Assembly: GCA_002104935.1 (NCBI GenBank)
Contig: MCGT01000012.1
Coordinates: forward strand, 434,001-498,000
Reading direction: 5' to 3'
DNA from: Hesseltinella vesiculosa
Taxonomy: Eukaryota > Mucoromycota > Mucoromycetes > Mucorales > Cunninghamellaceae
DNA length: 64,000 bases
A program made the position numbers and the translations under genes. This document shows, in pieces, positions 46,456-56,460 of this stretch (its first letter is position 1; the number at the start of each line of letters is the position of its first letter). Under the pieces are notes generated by a model. The model made no database searches, was not told the origin of the DNA, and was given only the letters and a program-made list of their open reading frames with translations.

Positions 46456-46756
46456 ATGATGCCTGCCTGTAAGAAAGGTTGCCATCTGTCTAAGTCTAAT
46501 AGATTAGATGGATGCAAGTTAATCGATGCATTTGTGCTAACTTTAACATCCTTTTCCTATTTTTTTTTCCCCCTAAATAGACGACGACCGCGCTGCTGCC
46601 TCAGCTACTGCCTCTGCTTCCCGTGCTTCCCCCGCCTCACCTCCACCACCACCCTACGCATCACCTTCCACCTTCTTCTGTAAGATTCCTTTATAGGTGC
46701 CATTGGCTGTTTGCTAGGCATTGCCATTGTATCGCAATGTTTGTTTACTCACACGA

Positions 46757-46791
<35 letters not shown>

Positions 46792-49700
46792 AGCCGCCCC
46801 TTATTCCGGTTATGTTCCCGCCGAAGAAAATTGTAAGTCGCTTTGAAAAAAAAAGAACCAAATCAACTTCATGCTTAACCATTTTTTGTTTTTCTTTTTT
46901 TATTCCATTTTGCTGCTTTAGATCAAAAAACCCGTAAGTGCCATTCGTAAAAACTAAAAAAAATGAACGATTTAATGCAGTGATCGCTGACCTAGTCCAT
47001 TTTCTTCTCCGCATAGAAAAAAATGGTGAGAACTCGTGCACGGACTCCTGCAAGAATGAGTCGGATTTACTTTTTTTATTCTCTCTCTCTAGATTCCGGT
47101 TGTGTTCCCGCCGATGAAGAAAGTAAGTTACTTTAAAAAAAACAAGTACCAAAGCAACATGTTGCTTACCTATTTTTCGTTCTATTTTATTCCATTGTGC
47201 TGCTCTAGATCAAAAAACCCGTAAGTATCATTCGCACAATTGAAACAAAATGAATCAAAATTAATAGATCCCTGACCATGATGTTCTTCTCCACATAGAA
47301 AAAAAATGTAAGAGCTTAATGTGCCGCACTCTTACGAAAATGAGCCAGTCTCATCAATTTTTTTTCTCTAGCACCCAATTCCGGTTATGTTCCCGCCGAT
47401 GAAAATCGTAAGTTGCTTTGAAACACAAGAGCTAAAACAACTGCATGCTTTAACTGCTTTTTCGTGTTTTTATATTTTTTTTTACCCTTGGCAATCATAG
47501 AAGAAAACACCCAAAGTAAGATTAACATGCTGTCATTGAGACACAAATAAGGCCATGGACAGTATAGCCGCTTAACATTTCTTTATTTACAATAGAAAAA
47601 TATGAAAATGCAGTAGAAAACCCCAAAAAAATCACCTATGCCCCTTATGCCACCTCTTCTGTGTCTTCTGTCCCTGTTTCGGTGTCTTCTGCCCCTGCGC
47701 CAATCACTCGCCCTGGCTACGCCCACTTGCCACCCTCACCATTGTCGCCCGTGGGTTCTCCCCTGTTGGGTCCTGTGTCGCAGGCCCTTTCGGCAGCATT
47801 CCGTCCGCTGCCACCATCCAGCAAGCCGGCGGCTCGGTTCCGTGCTTTGGCTCCGTCCTCCCTGCCAGAGGACTCACTGCTCCGCAACTTGCTTGTCCGA
47901 CGACTCAAGTTGCGGGCAGCCAACAAGCGCCGCTCGGGCGGCGACGACTCGGCCCGCTTCACCAGTAAGTTCTTTGCCATCTTCGCTGTAGAAAGCAGCC
48001 TTTGAAACTGACTTTTTTTCGTTTTCTTCTATAGACCGTCGCGGGCCAAAACGTAAGCAATACAAAAAAATTACCTGAGGATGTTGCTAAGAATCACTCT
48101 TTTTAAAACTAGACGCCTGCAACTTCGCTGTGCTCTCTCGCCCTGTCGCCCCTGCTTCTCCCGCTCCTGCCCGCGTCGGCAATAAGCGACGCGGGGTGTG
48201 GGACGACGACACCCGCTTCTCTGGTAAGTATCAGTACTTTTGAGGAAAGCAGCATTTTACGAATCACACTCACACTCATTTTCTGCCCCTTCCTTATTTT
48301 TGTAGGCCGACGTGGCCCAAAGTGTAAGTTTTGCTATAAAAAAAATAGGGACGGTTCTTGTCAATAGACGTAACACCGGATTTTATTTTCTTAGCTGTCT
48401 CCTCCGGTGCGTCTGGCCCCTCGACAATGGTAGGGGCCATCTGGCCAAACCAATTTCTGGGCCTTGGCCCAACTCTGCCGTACCTTCCTGGCGTGGTTCT
48501 GTTTCCCGGGCCTTGTTTGCTGGCCCGTGGCCCGGCATATGTGCGTTCTGGGCACTTTGGCACCTACTGGCCACCCATCAAATTTGTTGGCCAAAAGGGT
48601 GCCAGTACTTGTGCCCAGACCAGCAAGGATGGAATCTGGGGTAAGTTGAATAACCGGGTATACAATTTTAGAACCTGTCGTTGACCTTTTTCCTGTTTGA
48701 AGGCAAATTGGTGCGTCGACATGCTCCTGTCGTTGGCGCACCAAAGCCCCAGATGAAAGGCAAGGCTCCCCCTTCCTGCTTCCGCCCCCGCAACATCAAG
48801 ACCGCGGCACCAACTTTTGCCAAGGGGGCGGTGAAGCTTTTGACTGGTTGCTCTGTGGCTGGCTGGCGCAGCAATCGTGCTCTGGCCAGCAATGCCCTTT
48901 ATTGGGGCATTTTTTGTCTGCTCTCCGGAGCAGACGTTGACTGGTGCTCCCCCCGTCGTCCTCACGAGAGCTTCACAGGTAAGTATATCTCTCAGTTCAC
49001 TTTAACATTTTACTTGGTATTGATGGCGATCCTTTTTTTTTTTTTCCAACATAGTTCTCGGCAAGCGCTCTCGTGAGGCGACGATCCGCCAAGAATTGCC
49101 CGAGCGCATGAACAAGCGCGCTCGGGCCGTGCACCCAGCCTCTTGCTTTGGTTGCCTTGTGTCTGGCGTTGGTGCTGGCCGTGTGCCCGGCACACCTGTT
49201 CGTTCGGTGTCTTCTGCTGCTGGTGGGCCCTTTGCTGCTGGGGCCCCTGTTGACGTTTTTGCCGGTGCTCTTGGCGCTGCAGGTGCAGCAGCGCCTGCCA
49301 CAAGTCTCTGCGGCCGCCGTGATGGCGGTCGCCGTGTTGAAGGTCACCGTCGACGTTGGGCAAAGCCTATGCCCAACTTCGTGGTGACCTTTGGTCCCAT
49401 TGTTAGCGTGCCTGGTGGCCGCACGGTGCTTCTGGGGTTCCCCCCTACCACATCGTCCCGGGACGCTTTGTGTAAGTTGAGAGAAGAAAAATTTAATGCA
49501 ACGTCAATGGCCATACTCACCCTAATTTTTATTTTATTATTGATGATTGATGACTAGCTCCATTGCTCCCGGGGTGGTGTGGTATCTCCGCCCCCGCCAC
49601 AGCAATGCTGTGGCATCAAACATGTCAATGGGGGCGGCAGTGGTCGGCGTCGGTGCCGGCCACGTTGGCTCGTTACGTGGTGCTGCTGGTGCAGCAGCAC

Positions 49701-50154
49701 CTGCTCAAGGTCTCTCTCGCTGTCGCGCTGGTGGTCGCCGTGGACGTCGGGCAAAACCTTTGCCCAACTTCACGGCGAACCTTGGCCCAATGTTTGGTGC
49801 TCCTGGGGGCCCAACCTGATTCTTGGCCCCCCCCCCGCCACATCGTCTCGGGATGCTTTGCGTAAGTTGAGAAAAAATAATGCAACGTGCAAGGTAATAC
49901 TCACCCGACTTTTATTTATTTAATCATTGATGTCTAGCCAAGCTCTTGGGATGATGTGGCGTGTGGCCAACGAAGGTTCAAGTCCTCCCCCCCCCCTTCG
50001 TTGGCCTGCCTTGGCCCCTGTCTTGGCAGTCTCTGGCTCCACACTATGTGGTTGGTCGTCTTCTCCGGCGCTTGGATGTCTGATTGGTAGGGAATTTGCT
50101 ATGACGACGCCTCCCCTGTCCTCAACCGGGATCCACGAGGGCGACGTCGCGTAA
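46456..50154 (+). CDS. Micro-exon gene, 19 exons, unknown function
   Basis: Exons: 46456-46468, 46581-46679, 46794-46832, 46922-46933, 47017-47025, 47093-47122, 47209-47220, 47299-47307, 47372-47407, 47501-47515, 47596-47964, 48035-48052, 48113-48223, 48306-48323, 48395-48640, 48703-48978, 49055-49471, 49558-49861, 49938-50154. Joined they give 749 residues with no stop. All introns are GT-AG; introns 1-17 are phase 1 and intron 18 is phase 2. The N-terminal part has repeats SGYVPAEEN, SGCVPADEE and SGYVPADEN, each followed by QKT and KK micro-exons. The centre repeats NKRR...DDxxRF plus RRGPK. The C-terminal half is rich in Gly, Ala, Pro, Arg and Cys. No signal peptide is visible at the proposed start, which may be incomplete. 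No known domain recognised. Expression is unproven, but so many clean splice sites in one open frame argue for a real gene. Confidence 0.6.
46794..47595 (+). repeat. Tandem three-exon cassettes of the micro-exon gene
   Basis: Units begin at 46794, 47093 and 47372 (period 299 and 279 bp). Each has a 30-39 nt SGxVPAxE exon. In the first two it is followed by a 12-nt exon and a 9-nt exon; the third unit has one 15-nt exon. Corresponding introns are also alike (for instance GTAAGT.GCTTTGAAA... after the first exon), so whole exon-intron blocks were duplicated. Confidence 0.75.
49185..49937 (+). repeat. Duplicated exon-intron block (exons 17 and 18)
   Basis: The 3' part of exon 17 plus intron 17 (to 49557) recurs as the 3' part of exon 18 plus intron 18 (~49640-49937). 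Both introns start GTAAGTTGAGA, contain TAATGCAACGT and TACTCACCC, and end in GAT(G)(A/T)CTAG. Exon 18 has a net shift of one base relative to exon 17, so the copy is read in a different frame. Confidence 0.75.
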
Positions 50155-51395
50155 AAGCAACAAAAGGGACACGTGCACCGAAAAAAAGTGCACCCTGAGC
50201 AACAAGCACCTTGTTTTTTTTTGTTTTGGAATTGAAAGGTACGTCAGAGACAGAAAAAAAAATGCCAAAAAAAAAATCAGAAACGTTGTGGAACATGATG
50301 CACTGACCACTTTTTTTTTGCAAGAGACATCGATCCAGGTGGCTGGCCTGGCCCCCTCTGGCACGGCGCCTTTGCTTTTGACCTACCATTCAAATCATTG
50401 GCATATGCTGGGCTATGTGGCATGGCGTTTTTTTTTTGCCTCAAAGGCTTTGGAATCATGAGGGAAGTGCACAAATTGTTGCTGTGCCACCATTGTGCGA
50501 AAACGGTCCGTTGCTAGCTAGACACGGCCCCCCTGGGTCCCCGGGGGCAGTGGAGGCACAACTGTCGTCATAGCACCCTACTGACGGGCATCTGAAACTA
50601 GCCCTGGCTTCCAACCTCGCAACTCTGAGCCCTCAACGTAAACCAAGACAGGTGGCCCTGGATTCAAGTCAGCTATATTAACACAGGTGGTAGTGTATTG
50701 TAATGATGCAAGTCAAACCAAACCAAACCAAACCAAGCCAAGCCAAGTCTTGGCCGTTCAATATGTATGGCTGGTGCGCTCATGTTTGGCCAAGGCTGTC
50801 TCTTCTTGGCCTTGCGCTCAAGCACCTGTGATGGCCCCTCGTTTTTTTTTTTCTGTATGGGCCTGTGACCAGATTCCAAAATACGGTCACTCTCAAGCTG
50901 GTGATGATCACTTCAGGGCAGCACACCCTGACATAGCTGACTTCAAGTTACTTTTTGGTCACCATGACAATCAAATAATGGTCTTTTTGGTCGCAAGCAA
51001 TGGCGACGAATGCCCTGGACTGATGCATTGATGAATCAGCGTTGTGATGCACCAGCCGACTGGCCATATGAACACAACGATGTTACAGGTACGTTCAGTA
51101 TCACACTCTCTGACACATTTAGTAACATCAGATCTTCAACACCGTAGACTAACTACCAAGTTCTTGGCCTTTTTGAGTCACTGCCAGCCCTCTTTGGCAA
51201 ACCTTCACTCGACAGCAATTGCTGGCAACAGACACCAGCACCGCTGGCCATTGGCTGTTTATCGTGGCCGGGGATTCAAGTCTTTTTTTTTCGTAATGGG
51301 GGGGGGGAACCTCCATACAAGTTATCCTGTGTATGAACAATTCAACTTCTGGGCTGGCCTGTGCAGGTCATGGACAAAATTCTCTGTCTGCTACC
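50155..51395. other. Gene-poor region, possible gene remnants
   Basis: Contains a CCAAA-type microsatellite (~50711-50746). A plus-strand frame near 50850-51031 (VWACDQIPKYGHSQAGDDHF...) has coding-like character but no start, no recognised domain and no clear continuation. Confidence 0.35.
50711..50746 (+). repeat. CCAAA/GCCAA microsatellite
   Basis: Four CCAAA-type repeats pass into three GCCAA repeats. Confidence 0.8.
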
Positions 51396-51399
51396 TTCG

Positions 51400-51725
51400 G
51401 AGGTGCTCGGCTTCAACTTTTGCTTAGCACGATCCTGTGGAATTTTGCGCAGACGGTGCCAGGGCCTCTCTACATCCTGGTGCCATTGGCGAAGCCTCTT
51501 CTCGTCATCTGCAATCCACATTTATGAAATATTTGATGACATGTTGTGGTGATGGTCATCAAGAAAAATCTCTCGCTGCATCTTGGGTGTTGCTGTGCAA
51601 CGCATGCCTAGTACGACCCTGTGGAAATTTTGCACAGTCGGTGCCAAGGCCACTCTCTGTGTCCTGATGCCATCCGGTGAATATCATCTAGTCATCTGCA
51701 GTCCACTTTTTTGAAAAATTGATGA
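51400..51725 (+). repeat. Direct repeat pair, ~125 bp units
   Basis: Unit at ~51420-51545 and unit at ~51600-51725 share ACGATCCTGTGGAATTTTGC-type starts (second ACGACCCTGTGG), GGTGCCA.GGCC.CTCT, TCCTG.TGCCAT and TCATCTGCA.TCCAC. They are moderately diverged and non-coding as they stand. Confidence 0.6.
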
Positions 51726-52039
51726 CCGTATCAAGGCATATTTGTTTCTTTTTCCGTGGCACCCTTTGCTGTATTTTGGCCGCTGGTCAAAGGAAAACTT
51801 TCCTTTTTTTTTTTGCACTCGACGATACCATGCCACTGGCAAGTTCAAGATTCCTTTTAACTTGGAGGATCCCTATTATATCGGTGACACTGATTTCCAG
51901 CAATCCTTCAAGGCACACTTATCCTTCACTCGTCATAAGCCTCTGTCATTTTCTCAATGCAATGTTGCTCACGTCCAAATGCAACGCACATTCAATGGAA
52001 CACTATGGGAAGCAAACTCTCTTTAATTGGCAGATTTTG

Positions 52040-53515
52040 GTGCTGTGAATTGAATCTCTCGCAATCATAGCAATTTCTTGGGAAGCACAACACATTGGTG
52101 GAATTGGAAACCACCTCTGGGAACACGATATTGAAGGCAATTCATACACACTTTGGCGGCTAAATTGTATGACAGCATTATTGACCTGGTTGGAATACAC
52201 AAGGCATAGGCAGAAATCAATGACATCTTTTAGCGCAGGTAAGCCTGCTTGGTTAGGTGGCTATTTTAGCGAGACACTGACGTTTTTTATTTACTTGGTA
52301 GGGATCCTCTCTTGGCGGAGACCTCTCATACCTTTTTTGGGCTGATTTTCATTTCTTTGGTTGCAGTGCCGCCGACGACCAATGGCGGTGCATGAAGAAA
52401 AAGGAAGTTTTGTGGGAAACAACACTCTTGGCTTGTGGTGGAAATTGGTGCTGTGAACCTTTCGAAATCATAGCACTTTTTTCGGAATCACACAACATTT
52501 TGGTGGAATTGATAACCGCCTCTGGGAACATGATCATGAAGGCATTTTGCTTTTTTCTTGGGTGGCATTTGCATGGCAACATCATTGAACCGGTCGTCAC
52601 ACACAAGATATTGGCAGGAACGAATGGCATCTTTTGGCGCAGGTAAGCTTGCTTGGATGGGTTGCTACCTTGGGAGACCATCATCTTCAACTGACGTGCC
52701 TTATTTTCTTGGTAGGGGCCATCTCTTTGGGTTGATTCTTTTTCTTTTTCTTTTTTTTGGGGAACAAAACTCTTGGACTTTTTGGTGGAACCGCTATGTA
52801 CCTCTCACAATCGCAACACTTTCTTGGGGAGCACACAACACTTTGCTGGAATTGGCAACCACCTCTGGGAACACGATCACGAAGGCATTTTATACTTTCT
52901 TTGGTTTTGTGGCATTTTGCATGACATCATTTTTGAACTGGTTGACACAAGGCATCGGCAGAAATCAATGGAAACTTTTGGCGCAGGTAAGCATATTTGG
53001 TTGGGTGACTACCTTGGTGAGATCATCTTCTTTATCTGACGAGTCTTATTTTCTTGGTAGGGGCACCTCTTTCGGTTGATTCTTCTTTAAAAAAAAATCT
53101 TTAAAAAAAATCTTTAAAAAAAAATCTGTAAAAAAAAAAAAAAACCTTCAAAAAAAAAAAAAATCTTCAAAAAAAAAAAAAAAAAGTTGGACTTGTTGAT
53201 GGAAATTGGTGCTGTGAACCTATTACAATCACAGCACTTTCTTGCGAAGCACACAACGCTTTGGTGAAACTGGCGATCACCTCTGGGAAAACGAATTTGA
53301 AGGCGACTCCCACACGCATTGGTGGCATTTTACATGGCAACATTATTGAACTGGTCGAAACAAGGTATAGGCAGGAATGAATGGCACATTATTCGCGCAT
53401 GTAAGCAAGTTTGGTGTGGTGGCTACCTTGGGGAGATTTTCTTATTTTACTGACACGTCTTACTTTCTCGGCAAGTGTCTTCTTTGGCGGAGTCTACTAC
53501 TTGACAACATCACAG
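52040..53515 (+). repeat. Four decayed tandem exon-intron units
   Basis: Each unit contains an exon-like stretch (CACCTCTGGGAA... ending ..GGCGCAG), then GTAAGC. About 60-75 bases later TTGGTAGGG, resembling an acceptor, appears. Donor-like GT positions are 52239, 52643, 52987 and 53401. Units 1 and 3 translate to similar peptides beginning GIGNHLWEHD and containing TRHRQKSM. Units 2 and 4 are frame-shifted. No continuous gene can be built, so I read this as a degenerated tandem array. Confidence 0.6.
53087..53185 (+). repeat. A-rich minisatellite
   Basis: Six to seven copies of a TCTT(C/T)A(n) unit with A-runs growing from 8-9 to 13-17 along the array, between units 3 and 4 of the tandem array. 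Confidence 0.8.
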
Positions 53516-54584
53516 CATATCTTATGAGCTATTTGACTTGCCCAGTCGATCTTTTTCAGTCATCCTATTCAATTTATCCAAGCAAAAATCAGCCATACTA
53601 GGTATTATGTAAGTGTGTATGAAGGCAAATTGTAACGAAAACGACTCATTGCGACCACGTGTAGTTTTCATTTCCTGTGGGACAGTATCCATGATGATCT
53701 CTTGGCGGAATTAATTTTCGGCGCGCTATTTCATGATGGCACACTCAGCAAGTCGCTGCACAAGTTTGGCTTACCTACAAACGACATCTGTTTCTCTGGC
53801 AAAAGTAACTACTTGGCTGCAATTTTCAAATGAGGTTAGCTAGATGGAGAACATATCATTTCAAGGTGGCGGTGCTCACTTTTATTTTTATTATAGAAAA
53901 ATTCTATTCAAGTTTTATGTGATGTAACAAGCTGCTATTGGCATTTACATTGAACTTGGCAATGCAACCTTGGCCAAATGAGGGCCTTCCTTTACGGGTG
54001 ATCGAAAAACTTTATTCACTCTATTCCTCTTTTACTTCTTACCACTCACCGCATTACTACCCTTTTTAGATTGTGTGTGTGTGTATGTGTCTTCAGCAGT
54101 GAATTGTCTCGTAAAAAAAGGGGGCCTCGAGATTGATTCAAGAAACTTTGATTTGGTGGTAAACACTCCTCTGTACTATGTACATGTGGCCTTGCAACTC
54201 TTATTTGAACTTATGACCGAGGGTGACCTAAACTCAAGTAACGACGAATGAACCATACAGTAAATGTGGGATGAAAAAAAAAGTCATCTCAAATGCAATA
54301 CATCGATCACTCTCGAGTTGGCAAAAACTACCTCGTAAACAAGATAATCAATCGCCTTTTTACCCTCCTTCAGGTTTCACTATATATATCTCCTTCGCCT
54401 CCACTGGCTATGGTATCTCTAGGCTCCTTTCTTTTACTCTGACAGTTCACTTGCAACATATACACACAAACCACACAATATCAAGGACTCGATATTAAAA
54501 TAAATGAGCCAGACATCAACTTTTTTTTATTTTGTGGAGTTTCTTACAAGCTCTTCTGCCTACCAACTGCGAGAGCTGAAATTG
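53516..54584. other. Gene-poor, no gene seen
   Basis: AT-rich DNA without convincing exons. Confidence 0.45.
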
Positions 54585-54955
54585 AAAGGAAGACCATTTC
54601 TTACCATTAGAACTCGTGTGAAAAATTTAGAGTGAATCGACCTGGAGCACTTTGCACTGTGGTGTTTGGTCAGATTGCCTAGGGGTCCCCTGGAGAGAAA
54701 AGCCGATTTTTCTTGGCTGGGCAAGCGGAGGTGTCAAAAAGTAAGAGATCAAAAGCAGGCTGAGCGACTTTTACCAATCTCTCTGAGTTTTGCAACACCA
54801 TCATCATTGATGTGTTTATGCAATCATGCAAGATTCACTTTGTCTCAATCACTCAAAGATGCAGCGAAGCAGTTGGTTTTTTTTTTCCGAAGCGACGAAA
54901 AAGAGTGGAAGTCAAATTCAACGTCCGCGCTGTTGATGATGCAAAAAGCTGCAAC
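54585..54955 (+). repeat. Dispersed ~330 bp repeat, copy C
   Basis: Diverged copy: GGTCAGATTGCCTAGGGGTC, CCGATTTTTCTTGGCTGGG, CACCATCATCATTGATGTG and a T-run followed by ATTCAACGTCCGCG. Confidence 0.65.
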
Positions 54956-55205
54956 AAAAAAAAAAAAAACAAAAAAAACCACCAGTTCGACATGCGTTTG
55001 CAGCATGTTTTTCATGCCATCAAGCCTTCAAAGAGTAGATTTCAGATGTCAAGATGAGGTTTACCCCATGGCACCGGGAAGATTTAGTAGGAGCGATGAG
55101 TAATTTTTTTTGGCAGGTTAAAAGTGCTGCGCGACATCAATTCGTGCCATGCTTGCTGGCCTTCCAGTACTTCACACCGTGATCTGTGATAATGGTAATT
55201 TTAAT
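54956..55205. other. Gene-poor spacer
   Basis: Contains a short piece (AAAAGTGCTGCGCGACAT, ~55118) that resembles the repeat's 3' part. No gene seen. Confidence 0.4.
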
Positions 55206-55540
55206 CAATGTCATTTCTTATCGTTTAGTACATGTATGCGAATTTTGGACTGAACTGACTTACAACAATTTTGCGCTGTGCTTTTTGATCAGATCGCCTG
55301 AGGTTCCCCTGGCGAAAATGCCGATTTTTCTTTTGGAGAATCGGAGGTGTCGAAAAGACTCGGACTAAACATTGGCTGGGAAACCTTTACCAATCACACC
55401 AATCTTTTCAGTACCTCCATCATTCATGCATTTGCGCGCCTATATAAAATTTTAGATCTATTGAATCATTCAAAAGTGCTGTGTAGTGCTCACCTTTTTT
55501 TTCTCAAAATGAAATAGGCGATCTAAGAACCCAGCAGCTG
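55206..55540 (+). repeat. Dispersed ~330 bp repeat, copy D
   Basis: Good copy: TTTTTGATCAGATCGCCTGA, TTGGAGAATCGGAGGTG, AAACATTGGCTGGGAAACC, CATCATTCATGCATTTGCGC, AAAAGTGCTGTGTAG. It keeps the same 5' edge (GTCATTTCT) as copy A. Confidence 0.75.
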
Positions 55541-56229
55541 AAAACAAAAAAAAAAACCAGTCAGGCTTGCTTGACAAAACCGTGATAGAGTTTACCTTTT
55601 CCAGTGGCACATCCATACTTGAAGGTTTCTTTATAGGCATATACGCCTTGTCAGATATAACCTCGTCAACTTCCATAGCATCGGTCAAAGTGGGATCAGC
55701 AAAGCAGGTTAGAAATAGCGGCAGGGGTCGAAAAAAACTAAAGAAATAGGATGCGATGGGGTAAACTTCTCTAGGACAATAAAAACAAAGCCCCAAGCGA
55801 GATTTGAGACAGGGTATCAATGGCTGTCTTTGGTTTCTGCTTAGGTACACTGTCGTCGTCGCCAAAGCCGGCAATCTCTTCCACAGGATGTGCCACGGTA
55901 TGGGATCAGACACGTATGACATGGTGACGAGCAGTAGCATCACCTTCAAAAGGAAATTGTCATCAGAAACACTTCAATTGGGCTATACCACCATACTATC
56001 ATTGGGAAAGTAGGGAAGTGGTGATTTATTGGTGCTTTTTTTGATCCTGAGCGTCATCGCTGATGTATTCAATATCACTGAAAACATCGGCCCACCTACG
56101 TCGTTGATCAAGCAACTGCATTTTACAGTGCATAAATAAAATCATTCCCTGCATGCATTTTTTTTTCTGTAGTTTACCTCGTACCTTGCGCTGACGTTTC
56201 ATTCCAACGCCGTTTTTATTTTTTGGTTG
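55541..56229. other. Gene-poor, possible fragment
   Basis: Short frames on both strands around 55560-55950 may be remnants of a mobile element or gene. No domain recognised. Confidence 0.35.
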
Positions 56230-56460
56230 AGGATTTGGAAGTGTCAAATTAAACATGCAAAACGTTGGCTGGGCAACGTCACCATTCGACACGAGTTTTT
56301 CAGCATCATCACCAATCAAACGTTTGTGCTCGCATGCAAAATATCACGTTGATCTGGCACTCCAAAAGTTCTGCGCAGGATTTTTTTTTTTCGAACTTTC
56401 CCCAAGGCGATCCAATAAAAACAAACCCACTTCATTTCAACGTCTGCGAGCGTGCACAGT
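56230..56460 (+). repeat. Dispersed ~330 bp repeat, copy E (partial)
   Basis: Keeps the 3' two thirds: AACGTTGGCTGGGCAACGTC, TTTTCAGCATCATCACCAAT, AAAAGTTCTGCGCAGG, T-run, TTTCAACGTCTGCG. Confidence 0.6.

Follow-up and report, generated by a model that had tools for sequence, protein, structure and literature searches.

Micro-exon cassettes in a protein-coding gene family of the mold Hesseltinella vesiculosa

Introduction

Can a fungal gene be built from exons as short as 9 nt, and does such an architecture point to a secreted, variable effector? The question is raised by a locus of the soil mold Hesseltinella vesiculosa (Mucorales, Cunninghamellaceae) at positions 46456 to 50154 of a 64,000-nt stretch of DNA (the window; C4:434001-498000 of the 27.05 Mb genome, which comprises 85 contigs). 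An earlier note, made from the letters alone, had proposed a gene of 19 exons with seventeen consecutive phase-1 introns, in which exons could be skipped or duplicated without loss of the frame, and had drawn a parallel to the schistosome micro-exon genes (MEGs), the aphid bicycle genes and the SP7-like effectors of arbuscular mycorrhizal fungi.

To our knowledge, the symmetric micro-exon arrays described so far belong mainly to proteins that parasites and aphids secrete, and we do not know H. vesiculosa as a host-associated fungus. The same architecture in a mold without sign of secretion would uncouple it from the effector role and would provide a small-genome system for how exons of 9-12 nt are recognized and how exon cassettes multiply. 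Fungal micro-exons are described as little studied in the available part of PMC11121469, which reports a functional switch micro-exon in a filamentous fungus, Xlr2 of Trichoderma; Xlr2 as presented there is a transcription factor with a single such exon, in contrast to the tandem array and the gene family studied here. Among the papers listed in searches of the literature available, which covers few subscription papers, none described a family of micro-exon genes in fungi.

Gene model and gene family

Rebuilding the proposed model from the sequence confirmed its arithmetic: 19 exons of together 2250 nt form 750 codons including the stop, every intron has GT-AG splice sites, introns 1-17 are in phase 1 and intron 18 is in phase 2. 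The donor GTAAG follows 17 of the 18 exon ends of this model, and introns 1-16 are 60-114 nt long.

A DNA search with 46456-47400 identified 12 genomic loci including the window, to which pattern and protein searches added a thirteenth, degenerate copy at C4:521.8-523.4 kb. The copies were assigned to group A (window, C4_531, C4_375), group B (C1_1509, C1_1465), group C (C24_111, C67_599, C34_267, C19_264, C49_95) and group D (C24_38), with C1_1533 and C4_521 left ungrouped, and the window was aligned with 11 other copies to project exon boundaries. The frame is intact through exon 16 in nine copies, namely the window, C4_531, C4_375, C1_1509, C24_111, C67_599, C24_38, C19_264 and C34_267. Four proteins of the family have been deposited, referred to here as P0001 (window), P0002 (C4_375), P0003 (C1_1509) and P0004 (C1_1465).

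The paralogues and P0001 support exons 1-16 and most of exon 17 of the proposed model, whereas both of its ends had to be revised. The shared ATG, in the copies keeping the start as well as in P0001-P0003, is the second one at 46459. Exon 18 (49558..49819, plus strand like all parts of the gene), in which part of exon 17 is repeated (D5, D6, D8), is read by P0001 and P0002 in another frame, which runs to a TGA at 49817-49819; the conserved product ends there, and exon 19 is not coding. The frame first proposed for exon 18 looks open because exon 17 of the window (49055..49471 in the first model) is with 417 nt one base shorter than in two close copies, in which it measures 418 nt and is followed by a phase-2 intron 17. 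P0001 is reproduced letter for letter by joining exons 1-4 and exons 6-16 with exon 17 as far as 49469 and with 49558-49819, and its exon 17 donor, GTGTAA, lies two bases upstream of that first assumed. The seventeen consecutive phase-1 introns are thus present as written, but the conserved frame gives 16, intron 17 being in phase 2. As judged from these comparisons, the corrected gene consists of 18 coding exons, with 16 phase-1 introns in succession, starts at 46459 and stops at 49817-49819. Ten of its 18 coding exons are no longer than 36 nt, and together they contribute 169 of the 1988 coding nucleotides (summed). In group C, the exon following exon 16 stops immediately in four of the five copies (e.g. 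LMKDMFSRGGQN in C24_111), and C19_264 reads on.

The reading frame is more than a product of chance, since the same frame and splice sites recur in copies that are 0.49-1.17 synonymous changes per site apart. In six pairs of group representatives, compared over exons 2-5 and 13-16, multiples of three made up 71 of the 80 indels in exons but 27 of the 100 in introns, counts in which some events appear repeatedly as the pairs share lineages. The nine remaining exon indels had lengths of 11, 14, 22 and 25; the pairs 11+22 and 11+25 sum to multiples of three and are probably single indels split by the aligner, while the indel of 14 is left unexplained by such splitting. At the projected boundaries, exons 2, 3, 4, 5 and 15 have lengths divisible by three in all 11 other copies. 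The ratio of nonsynonymous to synonymous divergence (dN/dS) was 0.57, 0.53, 0.41, 0.46, 0.47 and 0.46 in the six between-group pairs (exons 2-5, the last 60 nt of exon 13 and exons 14-16) and 0.39, 0.34, 0.36, 0.69, 0.45, 0.51 and 0.43 in seven within-group pairs, and hence below 1 in 13 of 13 pairs. The contrasting indel lengths of exons and introns, the persisting splice sites and dN/dS values of 0.34-0.69 indicate a coding family under purifying selection; a chance reading frame is ruled out by the paralogue indels, dN/dS and the exact match to a deposited protein. From the sequence comparison we conclude that the micro-exon architecture is real, that the gene is protein-coding, and that the average selection on the family protein is purifying and not diversifying.

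Micro-exon cassettes and the deposited protein models

A short N-terminal region of the product is encoded by cassettes, each consisting of a 30-39 nt exon (SGxVPADEN) and exons of 9-15 nt (QKT, QKN). The first cassette of the window opens with exon 3 (46794..46832; 39 nt, SGYVPAEEN), whose core 20-mer occurs only in family loci. It is followed by the QKT micro-exon 4 (46922..46933), which measures 12 nt in all 11 other copies, with AG in ten and GT in all of them, and by the QKN micro-exon 5 (47017..47025), which is 9 nt long and flanked by AG and GT in each of the 11. The second cassette comprises exon 6 (47093..47122; 30 nt, SGCVPADEE), a second QKT micro-exon, exon 7 (47209..47220; 12 nt), and a second QK(K/N) micro-exon, exon 8 (47299..47307; 9 nt); the third begins with exon 9 (47372..47407; 36 nt, SGYVPADEN) and continues with exon 10 (47501..47515; 15 nt). 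The exon model and the deposited models agree on exons 6-10, with additional support from the repeats for exons 6, 7 and 9 and from the paralogues for exon 10.

The number of SGxVPADEN exons is three in the window, four in C1_1509 and one each in groups C and D, and the degenerate C1_1533 has two imperfect matches. Searched with up to two mismatches, the pattern TCCGGTTNNGTTCCCGCCGA was found in 26 genomic places, all of them family loci, against two for a reversed control; 23 of the 26 matches are perfect, silent positions included, and C1_1533 and C4_521 hold the other three. The micro-exon core also has one exact match in a viral contig (L040); by our estimate, about one is expected by chance in a collection of that size. 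Since the exons are symmetric between phase-1 introns, cassettes were gained or lost between copies with the frame kept, as the earlier note had anticipated: non-degenerate copies have one, three or four cassettes, and in C34_267 (L016, ~3.1-3.9 kb) the sequence between the end of exon 11 and the start of exon 13 has been deleted, which left a single exon of 837 nt that is still open.

The deposited models differ in their micro-exons. When all micro-exon subsets from the start (for P0004, from exon 2) to exon 11 were enumerated, each deposited protein fitted exactly one. P0001 and P0002 keep seven of eight micro-exons and leave out exon 5, P0003 keeps eight of ten, and P0004, matched with the micro-exon sequences of C1_1509, keeps four of ten. 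The four models thus represent three inclusion patterns, all in frame. The exon omitted from P0001 and P0002 has the donor GTGAGA, a weaker donor found in all three C4 copies, and the pair omitted from P0003 starts with an exon whose donor is GTATGT.

Introns and the intron-1 element

The introns of the family evolve slowly. Between groups, their divergence of 0.31-0.52 lies below the synonymous divergence of 0.49-1.17 in six of six pairs, and trimmed homologous introns are 65-74% identical as compared to 44-48% for non-homologous introns. Within groups, synonymous divergence exceeds intron divergence in all seven pairs, with Fisher p below 0.01 in five. Intron 1 (46469..46580) contains the 19-mer TCTAATAGATTAGATGGAT at 46495-46513, which at up to two mismatches has 11 genomic matches (10 exact), all in intron 1 of the family; it is present in 11 of the 12 aligned copies, C1_1533 being the exception, and control searches gave 0 and 1 matches. 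The hairpin predicted for this intron is suggestive only: compared with single-base shuffles, its z lies between -1.6 and -2.1 in the five copies tested, and C1_1533 folds differently.

Properties of the protein

As proposed before, the protein has no recognized domain: no Pfam family reached the cut-off in the four deposited proteins, and the candidates DUF702 (E 0.3) and RnaseA (E 0.83), obtained in a search up to E 1, stayed below it. For P0003, neither relatives among solved structures up to E 1 nor matching phage records were found. A simple hydropathy test, used here in place of a dedicated predictor, detected no hydrophobic N-terminus in any of five proteins (four deposited, one reconstructed), the largest 10-residue mean near the N-terminus being 0.77-1.10; P0001-P0003 start in exon 1, and P0004 has another N-terminus that likewise lacks a hydrophobic stretch. 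The parallel to secreted effectors is therefore unsupported, and an intracellular, perhaps nuclear, disordered protein is our best guess, given the absence of a signal-peptide-like start and the presence of basic clusters resembling nuclear localization signals (NLS). The AlphaFold model, with a mean confidence (pLDDT) of 30 on four sequences, is too poor for comparing folds; it fits disorder, but weakly.

A query of 226 residues without the Ala-rich part (3894 candidates) matched only the four deposited Hesseltinella proteins, and a first protein search over the best 8000 candidates gave no relative outside Hesseltinella among the matches listed. A search with the family alignment (A1) returned zero matches, the family itself included, and we think that Ala-rich words filled its best 8000 candidates. 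As these searches returned no group C or D protein of the same genome, either distant relatives can be missed or these copies are not in the database; with this limited sensitivity, the family has so far been seen only in H. vesiculosa.

Proposed explanation

Taken together, we consider it fairly probable that the locus belongs to a protein-coding Hesseltinella multigene family with duplicable micro-exon cassettes, a disordered intracellular product and possibly exon skipping. Short introns with GTAAG donors would be recognized by intron definition, which would make exons of 9-12 nt spliceable, and micro-exons with the weaker donors GTGAGA or GTATGT may be those left out. The protein would be disordered and intracellular, perhaps nuclear, and the number of its N-terminal repeats would change through duplication of cassettes in evolution and possibly through skipping within a single cell.

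Several observations weigh against this explanation. Four of the 13 copies look disrupted (C1_1465, C49_95, C1_1533, C4_521): C1_1465 contains stops and an exon 16 that is not a multiple of three, and in C49_95 the ATG is absent at the start site. P0004 omits micro-exons with GTAAG donors, and weak donors hence do not explain all omissions. The CTRAY branch motif occurs in only four of 16 window introns, and the NLS-like clusters were matched by a regular expression, in three of five proteins. No difference between introns and the 5' flank was seen in four of seven pairs, in three of which the introns were slightly more diverged, and exons exceeded introns in raw identity in one of seven close pairs (C24_111 and C49_95). 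A faster mutation of the GC-rich exons may account for the slow evolution of the introns and is a real alternative to constraint. A bolder version, by which a free-living fungus independently evolved tandem, combinatorially included cassettes of symmetric 9-39 nt exons, with a private and near-invariant RNA control in intron 1, cores constrained even at silent sites and many disordered intracellular variants, appears rather unlikely to us.

A serious contender, which we rate at somewhat less than an even chance and whose likelihood overlaps with that of the explanation proposed here, is constitutive splicing: the micro-exons of an intron-rich gene would be by-products of tandem duplication, all of them always included, and the deposited models would have missed tiny exons. 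Gene prediction programs often miss exons of 9 nt, and the GTAAG donors at nearly all exon ends, the omission of the same exon from P0001 and P0002 and the purifying dN/dS values agree with constitutive inclusion. Against it, the deposited models contain further exons of 9 and 12 nt whose boundaries are exact, and it is exon 5 that carries the weaker donor in all three C4 copies.

Three-prime region and possible mobility

Alignments of the copies extend beyond the coding part into a conserved non-coding 3' region (49820..54522). Over 50017-50845, identity in the six group C and D copies amounts to 70-74%, as compared to 49-59% for exons 15 and 16 in the same copies. The region includes four tandem units (52027..53511) with GTAAGC donors at 52239, 52643, 52987 and 53401; inspection also suggests a CTGAC branch motif and an AG resembling an acceptor. 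This donor pattern gave 15 units in seven of eight copies searched and none in C24_38. Indels between the units include non-multiples of three, which break any frame, and the units apparently are non-coding exons that undergo splicing. Between 49.5 and 55 kb there is a single AATAAA in sense orientation; located at 54499, 4.7 kb past the stop, it lies in a conserved block (54389-54522) common to all eight copies aligned, a set without C1_1509, C1_1465, C24_38 and C1_1533. Gene and 3' tail would accordingly form one unit of ~8 kb.

Such a unit could be selfish or mobile, the gene and its spliced non-coding tail spreading as a block like a driver or a transposon passenger. Group C pairs on different contigs align over ~5.8-6.9 kb in total at 87-95% identity, C4 and C1 carry clusters of copies in either orientation, and a dispersed foldback repeat is found at some ends. 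We nevertheless regard mobility as unlikely: inspection by eye of the junctions of five copies showed no terminal inverted repeat or target duplication of the unit, an inverted-repeat search of the window stretch and L012 gave only an A/T run, and the four deposited proteins match no Pfam family at its cut-off.

Copies of the dispersed repeat lie at 54612-54886, 55224-55514 and 56216-56395 of the window, and 55 matches were obtained from the 40 scored of 618 candidates. At four repeat places, chosen as listed inverted pairs, they form foldback elements with arms of 270-438 bp and 94-99% identity. The block 55159-56454 is located downstream of the gene in the window and directly upstream of it in C4_531, and a 367 bp stretch flanks the unit on its 3' side in C24_111 and on its 5' side in C67_599. 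At 1049-2022, on the minus strand, two overlapping frames encode a transposase-like helix-turn-helix protein, with HTH_32 above the cut-off for 1049-1735.

The conserved non-coding parts, introns and 3' tail, might also carry the main function as RNA, with the protein being secondary. The introns and the 3' region are less diverged than synonymous sites, and the AATAAA block is conserved far beyond the stop codon. However, indels that keep the frame and a dN/dS below 1 show that the protein is under selection, Rfam gave no match at gathering score in the window, and a structure scan of the 3' region placed four of 20 windows at z of -2.9 or below, the rest being weaker; a primary RNA role is very unlikely in our view.

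Comparison with known micro-exon and effector systems

A secreted variable effector of the MEG, SP7 or bicycle type would fit a multi-copy, repeat-bearing family with frame-symmetric micro-exons that is known from one species so far, but is very unlikely in our view, as no signal-peptide-like N-terminus was seen in the five proteins tested, dN/dS is below 1 in every pair and ordinary exons hold most of the coding length.

Aphid bicycle proteins carry paired Cys-Tyr-Cys motifs, and a loose pattern of this motif (C, 1-10 residues, Y, 0-4 residues, C) had no match in P0001-P0004. According to the part of PMC9168663 available, bicycle genes have ~17 exons on average, and nearly all their internal exons start at codon position 2. 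This corresponds to the phase-1 introns 1-16 of the Hesseltinella gene, which differs by organism and protein, by the lack of a visible signal peptide and by several large internal exons. The schistosome MEGs, as far as described in the accessible parts of PMC4350168 and PMC10526429, share tiny symmetric exons whose skipping keeps the frame. They differ in that their proteins are secreted or membrane-anchored with a signal peptide, in contrast to the hydropathy of the five Hesseltinella proteins, in that micro-exons make up most of their coding region, and in introns of up to 5 kb. MEG protein variants arise by alternative splicing; for Hesseltinella, the deposited models differ in micro-exon content. 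The SP7-like effectors are, in the portion of PMC11333574 at hand, multi-copy; an intron precedes the first of their imperfect, hydrophilic repeats, and several have an NLS. Multiple copies, repeats, an intron ahead of them and NLS-like motifs in several members are also seen in Hesseltinella. By contrast, all SP7-like effectors have a signal peptide, their repeats are not described in this portion as separate micro-exons, and its authors found none in Mucoromycotina. SP7 proteins were absent from the matches of our general searches for relatives, which did not include a search for the repeat-island signature.

Other parts of the gene

Coding exon 1 (46459..46468) has 10 nt, encodes MPA plus one base, and is characterized by ATG and the GTAAGAAA donor in copies keeping the start. 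It is followed by the Ala/Ser/Pro-rich exon 2 (46581..46679). Exon 11 (47596..47964; 369 nt), supported by the exon model and the P0001 match, ends with KRRSGGDDSARFT. The RRGPK micro-exon 12 (48035..48052; 18 nt) has AG and GT at the projected sites in nine of 11 copies, and the second RRGPK micro-exon, exon 14 (48306..48323), measures 18 nt with AG and GT in ten of 11. Exon 15 (48395..48640) has 246 nt, and exon 16 (48703..48978; 276 nt) is a multiple of three in nine of 11 copies, all except C1_1465 and C1_1533.

Exon 13 (48113..48223; 111 nt) ends with KRRGVWDDDTRFS. Seen by eye, exons 11-12 and 13-14 resemble a repeated pair, KRRSGGDDSARFT with NRRGPK and KRRGVWDDDTRFS with GRRGPK. Exon 13 measures 192 nt in two copies and 552-756 nt in five, in which it is Ala-rich. 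In C24_111, C67_599, C19_264 and C49_95, the exon has this enlarged Ala-rich part and repeats of a Gly-Pro-Val type, and the lengths of 588-756 nt differ by multiples of three.

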